NCBI RefSeq assembly: GCF_014643835.1
Contig: NZ_BMKD01000005.1
Span: forward strand, 124,001 to 188,000
Direction: 5' to 3'
DNA: 64,000 nucleotides
Origin: Mucilaginibacter rubeus
GTDB taxonomy: Bacteria > Bacteroidota > Bacteroidia > Sphingobacteriales > Sphingobacteriaceae
The first letter of the stretch is position 1; each line of letters opens with the position of its first letter. Shown piece after piece: positions 15,889 to 55,305 of the stretch. Below the pieces are notes generated by a model that had not been told where the DNA came from, did not search any database, and saw only the letters and a list, made by a program, of their open reading frames with translations. The position numbers and the translations under genes were made by a program.

Positions 15889-15952
15889 AATCCGACCAAT
15901 CCTCCAATCCTAAAAATCATGGTTCAGAAAAATCATCGTAATCAAAAAAATC
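15889..15952. repeat. 9-nt periodic AATC array between convergent genes
   Basis: AATC occurs at 15889, 15898, 15906 and 15915, and again at 15931, 15940 and 15949, i.e. every 9 (once 8) bases within each block. The stretch AATCAAAAAAATCA (15940-15953) is identical to the centre of the arms around the GxxExxY gene. It lies between convergent genes and borders the LUD gene's stop codon. Confidence 0.55.
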
Positions 15953-32655: not shown

Positions 32656-32749
32656 GTCAATTGCGAGGTACGAAGCAATCCCCAACTTTACAGAGCGAAT
32701 TTGCATAGCCGCTATACTAATAGAGGATTGCTTCTTACCTCGCAATGAC
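32656..32749. repeat. REP-like palindrome, copy 2
   Basis: Outer arms GTCAATTGCGAGG... and ...CCTCGCAATGAC pair over about 25 nt with one bulge and one mismatch, continuing through GAAGCAATCC/GGATTGCTTC. The loop includes GCATAGCCGC, as in the copy at 28545. It is a dispersed element, not a terminator. Confidence 0.85.
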
Positions 32750-40540: not shown

Positions 40541-40631
40541 GTCTGAACTCGAATTTATGAAATTAAAAGAATTCATCGAATTTGCTTAGCATTCTGTTAA
40601 TTGATCAAATTCCATCAATTCGAGTTCAGAC
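40541..40631. repeat. 9-nt periodic AATT hairpin, no gene inside
   Basis: Exact outer arms GTCTGAACTCGAATT (40541-40555) and AATTCGAGTTCAGAC (40617-40631). Inside, AATT recurs at 40552, 40561, 40570 and 40579, and on the other arm at 40599, 40608 and 40617: exactly 9 bases apart in both arms. It follows the FAD oxidoreductase gene and resembles the arms around the GxxExxY gene in period, not in the outer sequence. Confidence 0.75.
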
Positions 40632-41381: not shown

Positions 41382-41546
41382 ATGGCAAAGAAAGTAGTTG
41401 CAACGCTGAAAGTAGCAGGTAAAGGCAAAGAATATTCAAAAGTGATCACCATGAATAAATCACCTAAAACTGGTGCTTATTCATTCAAAGAGCAAATTGT
41501 CCCTAACGATTTAGTTAAGGATGCAATTGCAGGTAAAACTATATAA
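41382..41546 (+). CDS. DUF4295, Bacteroidota-specific small ribosomal protein candidate (bL38)
   Basis: 54 residues (MAKKVVATLKVAGKGKEYSK to VKDAIAGKTI). Very basic, and its position right after rpmB-rpmG is a hallmark of this phylum. In Flavobacterium ribosome structures a DUF4295 protein is, to my recollection, part of the large subunit and was named bL38; this is from memory, not from this window. Too short to be found by usual length cut-offs, but the start, context and conserved KK-VA pattern make it secure as a gene. Confidence 0.9.
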   Translation: MAKKVVATLKVAGKGKEYSKVITMNKSPKTGAYSFKEQIVPNDLVKDAIAGKTI

Positions 41547-41568
41547 TCACTCTTTGATTAAAATATTG

Positions 41569-41601
41569 AAGCCGTCTTGTTTTAACGAGAGGGCTTTTTT
41601 T
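41569..41601 (+). terminator. Intrinsic terminator of the ribosomal operon
   Basis: Arms AAGCCGTC (41569-41576) and GAGGGCTT (41589-41596), one mismatch, followed by a T7 run. It follows the DUF4295 stop by 22 bases. Confidence 0.8.
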
Positions 41602-41615
41602 GTTGAATGAAATTA

Positions 41616-41745
41616 GATGTGCAAATTTCAGGTGTGCAAATGCGCAGATGAAGAAAGGTGATTTGATATGGCAACATATTTGAATACTGAAATTAGTACA
41701 TTGAACAAACAATCTGCACATCTGAAATTAGCACATTTGCATATC
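41616..41745. repeat. 8-nt periodic palindromic array before ftsY
   Basis: Left words GATGTGCA, AATTTCAG, GTGTGCAA, ATGCGCAG start at 41616, 41624, 41632 and 41640. Right words TCTGCACA, TCTGAAAT, TAGCACAT, TTGCATAT start at 41713, 41721, 41729 and 41737. Both arms are built from TTGCACA-like words, reverse-complementary overall, and end 8 bases before the ftsY ATG. Confidence 0.6.
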
Positions 41746-41752
41746 AACGAAC

Positions 41753-42718
41753 ATGGGATTATTTGATTTTTTTAAGAAAAAGGAAAACACGCAGCAGGAA
41801 CAGCAGGCGCTTGATACCGGTTTGGAAAAAACCAAGGATAACTTTTTTTCAAAGATCACCAAAGCCATCGCCGGTAAATCAACCGTTGATGATGATGTGC
41901 TGGATGAGCTGGAAGAGATCCTGGTTACATCCGACGTTGGCGTAAGCACCACGCTCAAGATCATTGACAGGATCCAGGCCCGTGTTGCCCGGGATAAATA
42001 TGTAAGCACCAACGAGCTGAACACCCTGTTAAAAGATGAAATTCAACAACTGCTTGCCGAAAACAACAGTAACGACTTCCGCAATTTTGAATATGGCGAT
42101 CATAAGCCATACGTAATTATGGTAGTTGGCGTTAACGGCGTAGGTAAAACCACCACCATAGGCAAGCTGGCCCATAAGCTTAAGCAGGCTGGCAACCAGG
42201 TTGTTTTAGGCGCTGCCGATACCTTTCGTGCAGCCGCGGTTGACCAGATTAAACTTTGGGGTGAACGTGTTGGTGTAAAAGTTGTTGCTCAGGCTATGGG
42301 TTCCGATCCTGCTTCAGTTGCTTATGATACCCTTCGTTCGGCTGTGGCCAATGGCGATGATGTAGCTATTATAGATACTGCCGGCCGTTTGCATAATAAA
42401 GTTGGTTTGATGAACGAGCTAACCAAAATCAAGAACGTGATGCAAAAGGTGATCCCCGGTGCTCCGCATGAGATACTGCTGGTACTGGACGCCTCAACCG
42501 GGCAAAACGCCATTGAGCAATGCAAGCAGTTTACCGAAGCTACCAATGTAAACGCCCTGGCGCTAACCAAATTGGATGGTACAGCTAAAGGTGGTGTGGT
42601 TATAGGAATATCAGATCAGTTTAAGATTCCGGTTAAATATATAGGTGTTGGCGAGGGAATGGATCACCTGCAGCTGTTTGACAGGCAGGCGTTTGTTGAC
42701 AGCTTGTTTAAAGCTTGA
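41753..42718 (+). CDS. ftsY: Signal recognition particle receptor FtsY
   Basis: 321 residues, short acidic N-terminus then the NG domain: G1 VGVNGVGKTTTIGKLAHKL, DTFRAAAVDQIKLWGERV, DTAGRLHNK, TKLDGTAKGG. It is the SRP receptor GTPase, docking ribosome-nascent-chain complexes at the membrane. The N-terminal A-domain is reduced, as in other Bacteroidota. Its stop codon (TGA) lies inside the first unit of the 9-nt array that flanks the next gene. Confidence 0.98.
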   Translation: MGLFDFFKKKENTQQEQQALDTGLEKTKDNFFSKITKAIAGKSTVDDDVLDELEEILVTSDVGVSTTLKIIDRIQARVARDKYVSTNELNTLLKDEIQQLLAENNSNDFRNFEYGDHKPYVIMVVGVNGVGKTTTIGKLAHKLKQAGNQVVLGAADTFRAAAVDQIKLWGERVGVKVVAQAMGSDPASVAYDTLRSAVANGDDVAIIDTAGRLHNKVGLMNELTKIKNVMQKVIPGAPHEILLVLDASTGQNAIEQCKQFTEATNVNALALTKLDGTAKGGVVIGISDQFKIPVKYIGVGEGMDHLQLFDRQAFVDSLFKA

Positions 42719-42722
42719 TTTT

Positions 42723-42755
42723 TTGATTTCAGTGATTTTTTTGATTTCACCGATT
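42723..42755. repeat. Left arm of the inverted repeat around the GxxExxY gene
   Basis: A 33-nt arm in which GATT recurs at 42725, 42734, 42743 and 42752, exactly 9 apart. It matches the reverse complement of 43142-43174 at 32 of 33 positions. It begins four bases after the ftsY stop and ends four bases before the ATG of the enclosed gene. Confidence 0.85.
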
Positions 42756-42759
42756 ACCC

Positions 42760-43137
42760 ATGGCAAGTTATGAAAACGATTCATTAACAGAGAGAATAAT
42801 AGGCTGTTGCTTTGAAGTTCATAAACATTTAGGGCCAGGGTTTATCGAAAAAGTATACTCAAAAGCTTTACAACATCAGTTACAAATAGAAGGTTTAGCT
42901 TTCGAAACAGAAAAGAAATTCGAATTATATTTTAAGGAAAAGTGTGTTGGAGAATTTAGATGTGATTTTTTTATTGAAGGCAAAGTTATTGTTGAACTAA
43001 AAGCAGTGACCGGCCCTTTTTTACCGATAATTTTCCAAAAGCAACTCTTATCCTATTTAAAAGCAAGTAAAATCAAGACAGGCTTATTGATTAACTTTGG
43101 CAATGTAAGTTGTTCAATTAAAAGACTGTCTGTATAA
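42760..43137 (+). CDS. GxxExxY protein (PD-(D/E)XK nuclease superfamily)
   Basis: 125 residues. The family motif Gly27-x2-Glu30-x2-Tyr33 lies in HLGPGFIEKVYSKAL. The nuclease-like core is Asp69 (FRCDFFIEGK), Glu79 and Lys81 (VIVELKAV), which fits the PD-(D/E)XK arrangement; the end is LLINFGNVSCSIKRL. Family function is not established; many genomes hold several copies at scattered sites. The gene is flanked by a 33-nt inverted repeat with one mismatch, made of 9-nt units, and together they fill nearly the whole space between ftsY and rimO. The inference is that gene and repeats move or arose as one unit. Confidence 0.92.
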   Translation: MASYENDSLTERIIGCCFEVHKHLGPGFIEKVYSKALQHQLQIEGLAFETEKKFELYFKEKCVGEFRCDFFIEGKVIVELKAVTGPFLPIIFQKQLLSYLKASKIKTGLLINFGNVSCSIKRLSV

Positions 43138-43141
43138 ATGG

Positions 43142-43174
43142 AATCAGTGAAATCAAAAAAATCACTGAAATCAA
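43142..43174. repeat. Right arm of the inverted repeat around the GxxExxY gene
   Basis: AATC recurs at 43142, 43151, 43160 and 43169, exactly 9 apart. It is the reverse complement of 42723-42755 except for one base. It starts 4 bases after the gene's stop and ends 9 bases before the rimO ATG at 43184. Confidence 0.85.
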
Positions 43175-43183
43175 TTGGAAATA

Positions 43184-44521
43184 ATGAAGACAAAAGAAAT
43201 TTCCCGTCCATCTGTTAAGCAGGCCAAACCCCGTGTAAACGTGGTTACGTTAGGCTGTTCAAAAAATATTTACGATTCGGAAATATTGATGGGCCAACTG
43301 AAGGGCAACCAGTTTGATGTGGTGCATGAGGCCGAGAAGGTAGGCAAAAATGATATTATAGTAATTAATACCTGTGGCTTTATTGATAATGCCAAGCAGG
43401 AATCGATAGATACTATTCTGCAATACAGCGAACTTAAGGAGCAGGGCAAAGTAGGTAAGGTAATTGTTACCGGCTGCCTGAGCGAGCGTTACAAGCCTGA
43501 GCTTGAAGCCGAGATCACCAACGTTGATGCCTATTTCGGTACCAATGATCTGCAAAACCTGCTGGCTTCTGTAGGTGCAAATTACAAGCACGAACTTATT
43601 GGCGAGCGTTTATTAACAACGCCATCGCATTTTGCTTATTTTAAAATTGCTGAGGGCTGTAACCGTCCGTGCTCGTTTTGTGCCATCCCTTTAATGAGGG
43701 GTAAACACCTGAGTTCGCCGATTGAACAATTGGTTGAGGATGCAAAAAAACTCGCTAAAAACGGAACAAAAGAATTGATCCTGATTGCACAGGATTTAAC
43801 CTATTACGGTCTCGACCTTTACGGCAAACGCAATCTGGATGAGCTGCTTCGCCGTTTATCTGATGTGAACGGTATCGAATGGATCAGGTTGCAATATGCT
43901 TATCCTTCAGGTTTCCCGATGGAGATCCTGGATGTGATGAACGAGCGCGAAAACATCTGTAAATACCTTGACATGCCTTTGCAACACATCACCGATAACA
44001 TGCTGAAATCGATGCGCCGTGGTATTACCAAGCAAAAAACCATTGATATTGTGAACGAGATCCGCGATCGTGTACCGGGCATTGCTATGCGTACTACGTT
44101 AATCACCGGTTACCCGGGCGAAACCCAGCAGGATTTTGAAGAGATGGCACAATGGGTTGAGGATACCAAGTTCGACCGTTTGGGCTGTTTCACCTATTCG
44201 CACGAGGAAAAGACCCACGCTCATACTTTGGTTGATGATGTACCTGAAGAAGTAAAACAGGAGCGTGCCGATGCCATTATGGAAATCCAGCAGGGCATTT
44301 CTTTTGATAAAAACCAGGAAAAGATCGGCAATACCTATAAAGTGCTGATTGACAAAAAGGATGGCGGCTATTTTGTTGGCCGTACAGAATTTGATTCGCC
44401 CGAGGTTGATAACGAAGTTTTGATTGATGCAAGCATTGATTATGCTACCGTTGGCAGCTTTGTTAACGTAAAGATAGACAGTGCAGAAGACTTTGACCTT
44501 TATGGACAAATTGTAAAATAA
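43184..44521 (+). CDS. rimO: Ribosomal protein S12 methylthiotransferase
   Basis: 445 residues from the ATG at 43184. The N-terminal UPF0004 domain has VTLGCSKNIYDSEILMG and INTCGFIDNAKQESID; the radical SAM motif is GCNRPCSFCAIPLMRGKH; the C-terminal TRAM domain ends YATVGSFVNVKID. It adds a methylthio group to Asp of ribosomal protein S12. Start: an in-frame TTG at 43175 is less likely because it lies at the edge of the inverted repeat. A good terminator follows at 44574. Confidence 0.97.
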   Translation: MKTKEISRPSVKQAKPRVNVVTLGCSKNIYDSEILMGQLKGNQFDVVHEAEKVGKNDIIVINTCGFIDNAKQESIDTILQYSELKEQGKVGKVIVTGCLSERYKPELEAEITNVDAYFGTNDLQNLLASVGANYKHELIGERLLTTPSHFAYFKIAEGCNRPCSFCAIPLMRGKHLSSPIEQLVEDAKKLAKNGTKELILIAQDLTYYGLDLYGKRNLDELLRRLSDVNGIEWIRLQYAYPSGFPMEILDVMNERENICKYLDMPLQHITDNMLKSMRRGITKQKTIDIVNEIRDRVPGIAMRTTLITGYPGETQQDFEEMAQWVEDTKFDRLGCFTYSHEEKTHAHTLVDDVPEEVKQERADAIMEIQQGISFDKNQEKIGNTYKVLIDKKDGGYFVGRTEFDSPEVDNEVLIDASIDYATVGSFVNVKIDSAEDFDLYGQIVK

Positions 44522-49868: not shown

Positions 49869-49944
49869 GCGGTAAAAGTACGGAATAAATTGATTGGGAT
49901 AAGTACGATCCGTAGAAGCGAATCATATACGCAAATACCGACGG

Positions 49945-50469
49945 TTACAAATTAAAACTACACCCTAAAACTTCAGAGGTGATTTTGCCGGTTAGTTCAT
50001 ATACCAGTTCGTATTGGTGCGCTTCATTATAAGCGAACATGACCACCTTTTTATCTTCAGGATCAATAATGAAATATTCCTTTACCCCCACTTTTTCGTA
50101 CAGGTTTTTCTTTTTTAAAGTGTCATGAATACGATTACCGGATAGTATTTCAAAAACAACATCAGGTGCACCATGAATGCCATCCTTTTGGATAATTGAC
50201 TTATTTTCATTCAGGATCACCAGTACATCCGGCTGTAAAACGGATTGTTCTTGTTCGAAATAAACATCAGCAGGAGCATGCAGTATTACGCCCTTACCTG
50301 TTTCTTCCAAAAAATTATAAAGCAGGGCCGAAAGTTTTACGGAAATGAATTGATGGTCGGTGTTGGGTGCCGGGGTCATGATGAGTTGGTTGTACAACAC
50401 TTCGCATCTGGTACCCTCGGGCAGCCTCCGGTATATATCGACAGCAGTTGCAGGGATGGTAGGACTCAT
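49945..50469 (-). CDS. Uma2-family endonuclease-like protein
   Basis: 174 residues with the Uma2 (DUF820) PD-(D/E)XK fold: Glu23 in GTRCEVLYNQLI, Asp81 in LQPDVLVILNE, Glu107 in APDVVFEILSGN, and Lys near 119 in DTLKKKNLYEKVGVKEYFIIDP. Members are widespread and expanded in cyanobacteria and Bacteroidota; function is unclear despite the nuclease fold. Preceded and followed by unrelated genes; no inverted repeats seen around it, unlike the GxxExxY gene. Confidence 0.9.
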   Translation of the reverse strand: MSPTIPATAVDIYRRLPEGTRCEVLYNQLIMTPAPNTDHQFISVKLSALLYNFLEETGKGVILHAPADVYFEQEQSVLQPDVLVILNENKSIIQKDGIHGAPDVVFEILSGNRIHDTLKKKNLYEKVGVKEYFIIDPEDKKVVMFAYNEAHQYELVYELTGKITSEVLGCSFNL

Positions 50470-50523
50470 GTTGTAAATACTTTTATGCTAATTTAGTTAA
50501 AACGGCTTAAATAAAAAAGTATG

Positions 50524-54955: not shown

Positions 54956-55305
54956 AGTTTTAGGTTTGTAAAAAATAAAGATAACGGAATTATGAAACAA
55001 TCCACTATCGGGATAGATAACGGCAGGGGATATGGCCCTTAAAATGATCAGACTTGTGAATAAATTGGGGCGAAAAATTCTTACACGAATTGATTTTCAA
55101 ATCGGCCACAATTAATCGAATTACACGAATTTAAAATCGACATCAATAAAAAATTCGTGTAATTCGATTAATTCGAAAAAATTTGTGTGAAAATTTCTAC
55201 CTGTTTCTTCAAGAACCGAAAATTGATCAGGTGTACAAAAATCCCGCTTTAATTGTAATTTAGCTGTGCAGGCAATTGCCAATCACCTATAAACCACGCT
55301 ACTTC
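54956..55305. other. 350-bp intergenic region between DUF2339 and GH78 genes
   Basis: It separates divergent genes. It contains the 23-bp perfect inverted repeat (55110-55173) with weaker outer pairing from about 55075 to 55200. No convincing -7/-33 pair was located; no open frame. Confidence 0.75.
55110..55173. repeat. Perfect 23-bp inverted repeat with 9-nt periodic AATT
   Basis: Arms 55110-55132 and 55151-55173 are exact reverse complements, loop of 18. AATT occurs at 55110, 55119 and 55128, and at 55152, 55161 and 55170: 9 apart in each arm. It has the same period as the arms of the GxxExxY element. Confidence 0.85.

Follow-up and report, generated by a model that had tools for sequence, protein, structure and literature searches.

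What is a small nuclease-like gene doing inside a nearly perfect inverted repeat, wedged between ftsY and rimO in the chromosome of Mucilaginibacter rubeus? The question emerged from a sequence-only reading of a 64,000-nucleotide stretch of that genome, called the window here. The reading noted a GxxExxY gene enclosed by inverted arms built of 9-nt units and proposed that the gene and its arms form a mobile or copy-expanding unit. GxxExxY proteins are widespread, and to our knowledge their function is not known. Matches to the corresponding profile, PF13366, exist in 116 of 149 Mucilaginibacter genomes and in 151 of 296 genomes sampled from the phylum.

The GxxExxY gene and its arms at ftsY–rimO

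The window is bacterial chromosome, 93.9% identical to genome G001 across 60 kb, and its relevant features are collected in Table 1. The two arms are 33 nt each, 97% complementary, and separated by 386 nt, as found in an inverted-pair search of the window, and each carries four GATT or AATC words spaced 9 nt apart. The ftsY stop codon (42716–42718) lies 4 bases from the left arm, and the rimO ATG (43184) lies 9 bases from the right arm; the coordinates thus agree with the tight fit that had been described. When two 60-nt flanks are aligned, the arms score 31, while the best of 10,000 dinucleotide shuffles scores 21 and none reaches 31. Among 9,865 placements of the same spacing elsewhere in the window, the best score is 13. 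The window contains 21 inverted pairs of at least 22 nt within 900 nt; the GxxExxY arms head that list and are the only pair above 90% whose arms lie more than 100 nt apart. A three-word GATT pattern (at most one mismatch) occurs six times in the window versus 0.56 expected, and four of the six are the arms themselves. An Rfam search of 41500–43600 returned no match. Together with the profile matches given below, these results confirm a GxxExxY gene between inverted arms of 9-nt units.

Table 1. Features of the ftsY–rimO locus and gene-less arrays in the window
Feature	Position	Strand	Remarks
Short solo GATT array	15931..15952	-	9-nt period
Gene-less GTCTGAACTCGAATT palindrome	40541..40631	.	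arm-only form of another arm class; also in G001
ftsY, upstream neighbor	41753..42718	+	from ORF list and same-genus ftsY search; stop codon abuts left arm
Left arm	42723..42755	+	four GATT words in 9-nt steps
GxxExxY gene (TIGR04256, PF13366)	42760..43137	+	PD-(D/E)XK nuclease-like; 125 aa
Right arm	43142..43174	-	inverted copy of left arm, 32/33
rimO, downstream neighbor	43184..44521	+	starts 9 bases past right arm
Gene-less palindrome of CGAATTACACGAATT units	55048..55237	.	core 55110-55173; absent from G001

The encoded protein matches TIGR04256 (E 7.1e-38; 129.5 bits versus a cut-off of 35) and PF13366 PDDEXK_3 (E 3.3e-36; 124.6 bits versus a cut-off of 22). PDDEXK_3 is its sole domain at E values up to 1, and the Y1 (HUH) domain PF01797 is absent. 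The nearest fold to its AlphaFold model (pLDDT 94) is 4ic1 SSO0001 (E 2.6e-4, TM 0.58), which we take to be a Cas4 protein; weaker matches are lambda exonuclease, AdnAB, and AddAB (E 0.003–0.02). H21, E30, Y33, D69, E79, K81, Q95, and Y99 are each conserved in 132 or 133 of 133 distinct homologs, counts that include same-site relatives. Specifically, Asp69, Glu79, and Lys81, the residues picked out beforehand as PD-(D/E)XK-like, are conserved in 133, 132, and 133 of them. The D...E-x-K residues and the nuclease-fold matches of the model are those of the PD-(D/E)XK superfamily, and QxxxY is a mark of the RecB family. The protein is thus predicted to be a Cas4/RecB/lambda-exonuclease-like nuclease with conserved catalytic residues. 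It resembles Cas4, RecB-like proteins, and lambda exonuclease in predicted fold and in the conserved D, E-x-K, and Q-x-x-x-Y residues. Cas4 proteins carry an iron–sulfur cluster; unlike Cas4, the GxxExxY protein has only 125 residues, lacks cysteine in the columns that are at least 85% conserved, and is encoded beside ftsY and rimO rather than cas genes. A PDB sequence search with the protein found no match, and a PADLOC search placed GxxExxY in no defense family. Relatives occur in 8 of 72,556 plasmid records and 0 of 50,697 phage records, and plasmid or phage carriage was rejected on these counts.

Arms of other GxxExxY genes and their tie to the protein

A test set beforehand was that other GxxExxY genes should also have flanking arms. 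We compared the upstream flank of each gene with the reverse complement of its downstream flank (250-bp flanks; a score of at least 20 passes). The diverse set, the best 80 of at least 551 stretches encoding relatives, leans toward kin of the query and includes Bacteroidota, Chloroflexi, Planctomycetes, cyanobacteria, an archaeon, and others. Seventy-three of these best 80 of at least 551 have full flanks (7 were dropped); 37 of the 73 pass and 36 fail, as compared to 36 of 720 flank pairs from mismatched genes and to 2 of 113 when further ORFs from these loci are tested. In direct order, 14 of the 73 attain the same score. Of 34 Mucilaginibacter loci taken, 30 were usable, and 21 of these pass. 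In the phylum sample, which consists of 30 loci from the 151 genomes with a match, 12 pass and 18 fail; mismatched pairs pass in 12 of 289 cases, and direct order gives 6 of 30. Clear arms therefore accompany some 40–70% of GxxExxY genes, none being clear in the remainder, and the expectation is borne out. A full palindrome on each side of the gene, the RAYT-like layout, is seen in a few loci (L053, L080, L086) and was rejected as the rule: at a score of 18, full palindromes occur upstream of 8% and downstream of 4% of 126 genes, versus 2.5% of 160 control windows.

The arms are arrays of words such as GGATT, GAATT, TGATT, CGAATT, or CACAGAG, and their outer end is often TTGTCTGAAC or TTTAACCACAG. 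The mean excess identity is highest at lag 9, with 0.046 ± 0.004 across 157 flanks of the 80 diverse genes (again the best 80 of at least 551) and 0.043 ± 0.007 across 60 Mucilaginibacter flanks, with 0.006 in 328 random windows. The phylum sample, in which CACAGAG arms are common, has no excess at lag 9 (0.007) and 0.030 at lag 10; among its 30 genes, lag 10 is best in 11 and lag 9 in 3. This preference rules out a strict 9-nt rule. Kin of the window typically show the 9-nt period, which is not universal.

A link between arms and protein is provided by a Mantel test of protein identity against arm similarity. The window gene and 144 loci gave 145 genes, of which 133 distinct ones remained once short, unclear, broken, and identical ones were dropped; 240 same-site pairs were removed, so that only non-orthologous sites are compared. 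Over the resulting 8,538 pairs, r is 0.517. Permutations have a standard deviation of 0.035 and a maximum of 0.124, and 0 of 2,000 reach the observed value. Control flanks 400–520 bp out give r 0.073, a value that exceeds chance a little, with 1 permutation in 2,000 as high. For Mucilaginibacter alone, r is 0.568 versus -0.016 for the far flanks. The correlation shows that gene and arms travel together. Such co-diversification could be mere linkage; recognition of the arms by the protein does not follow from the correlation by itself.

GxxExxY genes also have a characteristic setting. Neighbors lie within 1 kb of 120 of the 133 genes (13 were dropped; same-site relatives are included), and 105 of the 120 sit between same-strand neighbors, 98 in the sense and 7 in the antisense orientation; the median gaps are 77 and 66 bp. 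Restricting the count to the diverse set (the best 80 of at least 551) gives a sense-to-antisense ratio of 56:1. The even orientation that random insertion predicts is incompatible with these counts (p 1e-21). Native small genes, at 131:18, do not differ from the full GxxExxY set (Fisher p 0.2), and their bias is slightly below that of the diverse set (p 0.028). Because it matches that of native genes, the sense bias may stem simply from residence in an operon. The most straightforward interpretation is that the GxxExxY gene would lack a promoter of its own and that the copies that survive would mainly be sense ones.

Presence, absence, and gene-less forms

The proposal of a mobile unit implied that not all relatives would carry the gene between ftsY and rimO, and they do not. 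Specifically, rimO adjoins ftsY in 29 of 30 same-genus ftsY loci, and 3 of the 29 have the gene with GATT arms. Neither the gene nor GATT arms occur in the five nearest relatives of that search (FtsY 99% identical); two further near relatives, G148 and G153, do have the gene between ftsY and rimO. At this junction, Mucilaginibacter genomes have either both gene and arms or neither. The spacer holds 457 bp of arms plus gene in the window and an 88-bp unrelated hairpin in G001; the comparison is one of replacement by another hairpin, not of a clean empty site.

The same five relatives carry other short hairpins at the ftsY–rimO spot. Across the spacers surveyed (L018–L047), species differ in their hairpin, GTCATTGCGAGG...CCTCGCAATGAC or CCCTCCCC...GGGGAGG, as if the spacer were a hot spot for interchangeable palindromes. 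Elsewhere in the window, 32660–32746 is an ATTGCGAGGTACGAAGCAATCC palindrome of the GTCATTGCGAGG kind, and 49899–50511 holds a gene that by eye looks like a Uma2-type PD-(D/E)XK gene, in place of which G001 has hairpin sequence of the GTCATTGCGAGG kind.

A protein search of the 149 Mucilaginibacter genomes revealed at least 18 close homologs (at least 61% identity over most of the protein). Of the 18 listed, 13 occupy ftsY–rimO and share one orientation, and the other 5 have neither ftsY nor rimO nearby. Three of the 18 are broken copies (G022, G005, G009); two partial, broken matches (G097, G143) lie beyond the 18. GATT-type arm words occur on at least one side of all 18 listed, at both kinds of site. 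In L283 and L290 the words are in direct, not inverted, order, L288 has no right arm, and for L281 the arm reading covers the left side. At ftsY–rimO, gene and flank identity correlate with r 0.47 over 91 pairs. Relative to the window, DNA identity in G148 is 95.8% for ftsY, 91.1% for rimO, and 88.7% for the gene; in G153 it is 91.6% for ftsY, 88.4% for rimO, and only 69.4% for the gene. The dN/dS ratio between the window and G148 genes is 0.06, and thus the protein is under selection. At another site, between an O-methyltransferase gene and ruvX (L238–L241, L249), the gene points one way in G001, G018, and G032 and the opposite way in G005; in G014, the site has a right-arm remnant and no gene.

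Arms without a gene are abundant. The two palindromes and the GATT array in Table 1 bear out the suggestion that gene-less arrays of the same period lie elsewhere in the window. The immediate flanks of the palindrome at 55048..55237 have also diverged in G001, so its absence there does not represent a clean insertion. Genus-wide, GTCTGAAC-headed arms (at most one mismatch) occur in 140 of 149 Mucilaginibacter genomes, with up to 251 matches per genome versus 0–3 for a reversed-pattern control, and 1.8 Mb of DNA, some of it overlapping or homologous, contains 47 distinct gene-less palindromes with a median length of 93 bp. Gene-less hairpins that share a gene's flanking repeat are clear for the GTCTGAAC arm class; the window's own GATTTCACCGATT class is represented by single arrays only, in G001. 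No target duplication had been noticed at the element, and likewise none was found at the 47 palindromes, where direct repeats of 2–9 bp in 16 offset combinations are in no excess over shuffled pairs.

In the 114 of 149 genomes that are at least 95% complete, arm counts correlate with GxxExxY (rho 0.53), RAYT (0.59), and PF05635 (0.31) counts and with genome size (0.56); with genome size removed, the values are 0.46, 0.46, and 0.34 for the three gene families. We reject the idea that gene-less arms are tied specifically to the number of GxxExxY copies, since RAYT counts correlate equally well. The 25 genomes without a GxxExxY gene have a median of 6 arms and the 89 with one a median of 30 (p 6e-6). 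G014, a closed genome, has no GxxExxY gene and 100 arm matches. In sum, the proposal of a mobile or copy-expanding unit is supported in that gene and arms are gained, lost, and spread jointly and have gene-less forms; the mechanism, including the copying step, is what we infer.

A proposed selfish element and its rivals

Two other gene families of the genus provide comparisons. PF05635 (23S rRNA IVP, a four-helix-bundle family; loci L208–L237 and L337–L366, one of 30 genus loci dropped) passes the inverted-flank test at a score of at least 20 in 18 of 29 Mucilaginibacter loci, with direct repeats in 10 of 29. Its arms have a period of 7, with excess identity of 0.117 at lag 7 and 0.091 at lag 14; in a phylum sample, 9 of 30 loci pass, and the best lag is 7 for 21 of the 30. 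In tandem gene pairs, PF05635 genes are sense or antisense 29:0 and 26:1. PF05635 arms, too, track their protein (59 genes, r 0.42, reached by 0 of 1,000 permutations; far flanks -0.004). Mucilaginibacter RAYTs pass in 14 of 28 loci (2 of 30 dropped) and have REP-type arms without such a period. Convergent neighbors surround 13 of 26 of these RAYTs versus 10 of 120 GxxExxY genes. The REP-type arms of the RAYT loci (L178–L207) read TGACCCATAGGGTC...CCTTTGTAG.

Our most surprising result is that two unrelated proteins share one layout with different periods. This arrangement hints that each protein reads its own arms. It also hints that the layout as such does not require a nuclease, a point against any mechanism driven by nuclease action alone.

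The explanation that we favor, with modest confidence, is that gene and arms probably constitute a small selfish element, roughly 0.45 kb in size, with a nuclease that acts on the element's own arms, in the manner of a RAYT–REPIN pair with an unrelated enzyme. The notion is that the arms would be the ends of the element. The nuclease would most likely recognize the tandem units of its own arms, either as duplex arrays or as single-stranded DNA hairpins, and its cuts there would trigger copying of the unit or its insertion, frequently in the short gaps between the genes of an operon. The gene would be expressed from the host operon's transcript, so mostly sense insertions would retain a functional gene. 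Gene-less arms, palindromes of about 93 bp, would be non-autonomous forms, mobilized in trans, or decayed ones. Because gene-free sites lack GATT arms, arm recognition would not cut the empty allele, as a homing endonuclease would. No insertion in progress was caught in this material, in which neither a target duplication nor a clean empty site was found.

Alternatively, another enzyme could move the arrays, for example a RAYT or host replication or recombination, with the nuclease gene as cargo that has some other role, such as ensuring that the genome retains the element. In favor of this, arm counts correlate with RAYT copies no less than with GxxExxY copies, G014 is rich in arms yet lacks a GxxExxY gene, and PF05635 elements share the layout although their protein is not a nuclease. 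We nonetheless consider this account unlikely. The RAYTs of the genus have arms of another sequence and without the 9-nt period, half of them lie between convergent genes, and, from site to site and from phylum to phylum, the sequence of the arms goes with the GxxExxY protein. The 98:7 sense placement within tandem gene pairs, and arms that fill the spacers, are compatible with an element of the intervening-sequence type, in which the arms pair in the operon RNA, the loop with the ORF is excised by RNase III, and the host is scarcely harmed by the insertion, as in 23S rRNA intervening sequences with the S23 ORF. PF05635, the ORF family of those intervening sequences, has the same layout. Mismatches between arms that sense RNA would tolerate are not in excess, however (123 versus 149; transversions 456 of 728), and the absence of a sense-wobble excess led us to reject an RNA-pairing signature in the arms. 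Some genes, moreover, are antisense, as at O-methyltransferase–ruvX in G001, G018, and G032. We regard this account as quite improbable.

Most doubtful, in our estimation, is an old resident gene, inherited vertically at ftsY–rimO and frequently lost, whose arms are drifting terminators or regulatory sites. The shared site and orientation of 13 of the 18 close homologs listed, the partial correlation of flank and gene identities, and a sense bias like that of native genes would fit such a history. It sits poorly with a gene far more diverged than its neighbors in G153, compared with G148, with the five of the 18 listed homologs at other sites, with the opposite orientations at O-methyltransferase–ruvX, and with arm similarity that tracks the protein across phyla.

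The selfish element that we favor works like a RAYT–REPIN pair or an ORF-bearing intervening sequence and is a member of neither group. Analogous to RAYTs and REPINs, the latter as described in PMC3116915, it consists of a single gene flanked by its own kind of inverted repeat, has gene-less hairpins that are abundant in the GTCTGAAC arm class, and displays co-diversification of repeat and protein. Unlike RAYTs, which are Y1/HUH enzymes and here often lie between convergent genes, the GxxExxY protein is a PD-(D/E)XK enzyme encoded in the sense orientation in tandem gene pairs. Its arms are tandem arrays of about 9 nt, whereas REPs carry GTAG/CGTC tags (PMC3733652). The 23S rRNA intervening sequences, as described in PMC4990558, have a small ORF between inverted arms inside a transcribed region, a layout that the PF05635 genes of the genus share. 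They differ from the present element in protein family (PF13366 here), in period (9 here versus 7), and in location, the element residing between the protein genes ftsY and rimO and not in 23S rRNA. MITEs are a further parallel, as GxxExxY elements have terminal inverted repeats. The BrickBuilt MITE of Porphyromonas gingivalis, as described in PMC4596501, is a short intergenic element with inverted repeats and an internal 23-nt tandem unit; in the GxxExxY elements, by contrast, it is the arms that consist of 9-nt arrays, and a nuclease gene can lie between them. The target site duplication of MITEs was not found at the 47 gene-less palindromes. Within open-access PMC papers, no description of such elements was seen among those listed. 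The passages considered of PMC4679880, a paper on heptamer repeats of Beggiatoaceae, name neither four-helix proteins nor intervening sequences.

We speculate, tentatively, that these observations may reflect an undescribed broad class of operon-dwelling mobile elements, each with one small sense gene between inverted tandem-repeat arms. The protein family would set the repeat period (about 9–10 for GxxExxY, 7 for PF05635), the protein would read that period, arm-only palindromes would be the non-autonomous forms, and ORF-bearing 23S rRNA intervening sequences would be one branch. Tying GxxExxY proteins to their own arms gives these proteins a first substrate for bench tests. If the favored explanation is true, dispersed repeats such as TTTAACCACAGAGG... 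and GTCTGAACC... would be termini or leftovers of a single class of element, and the long-standing puzzle of intervening sequences that carry an ORF would be linked to it. The recurrence of the gene-plus-arms layout in distant bacteria points to a little-noticed, tiny kind of mobile element that lives inside operons of other genes.
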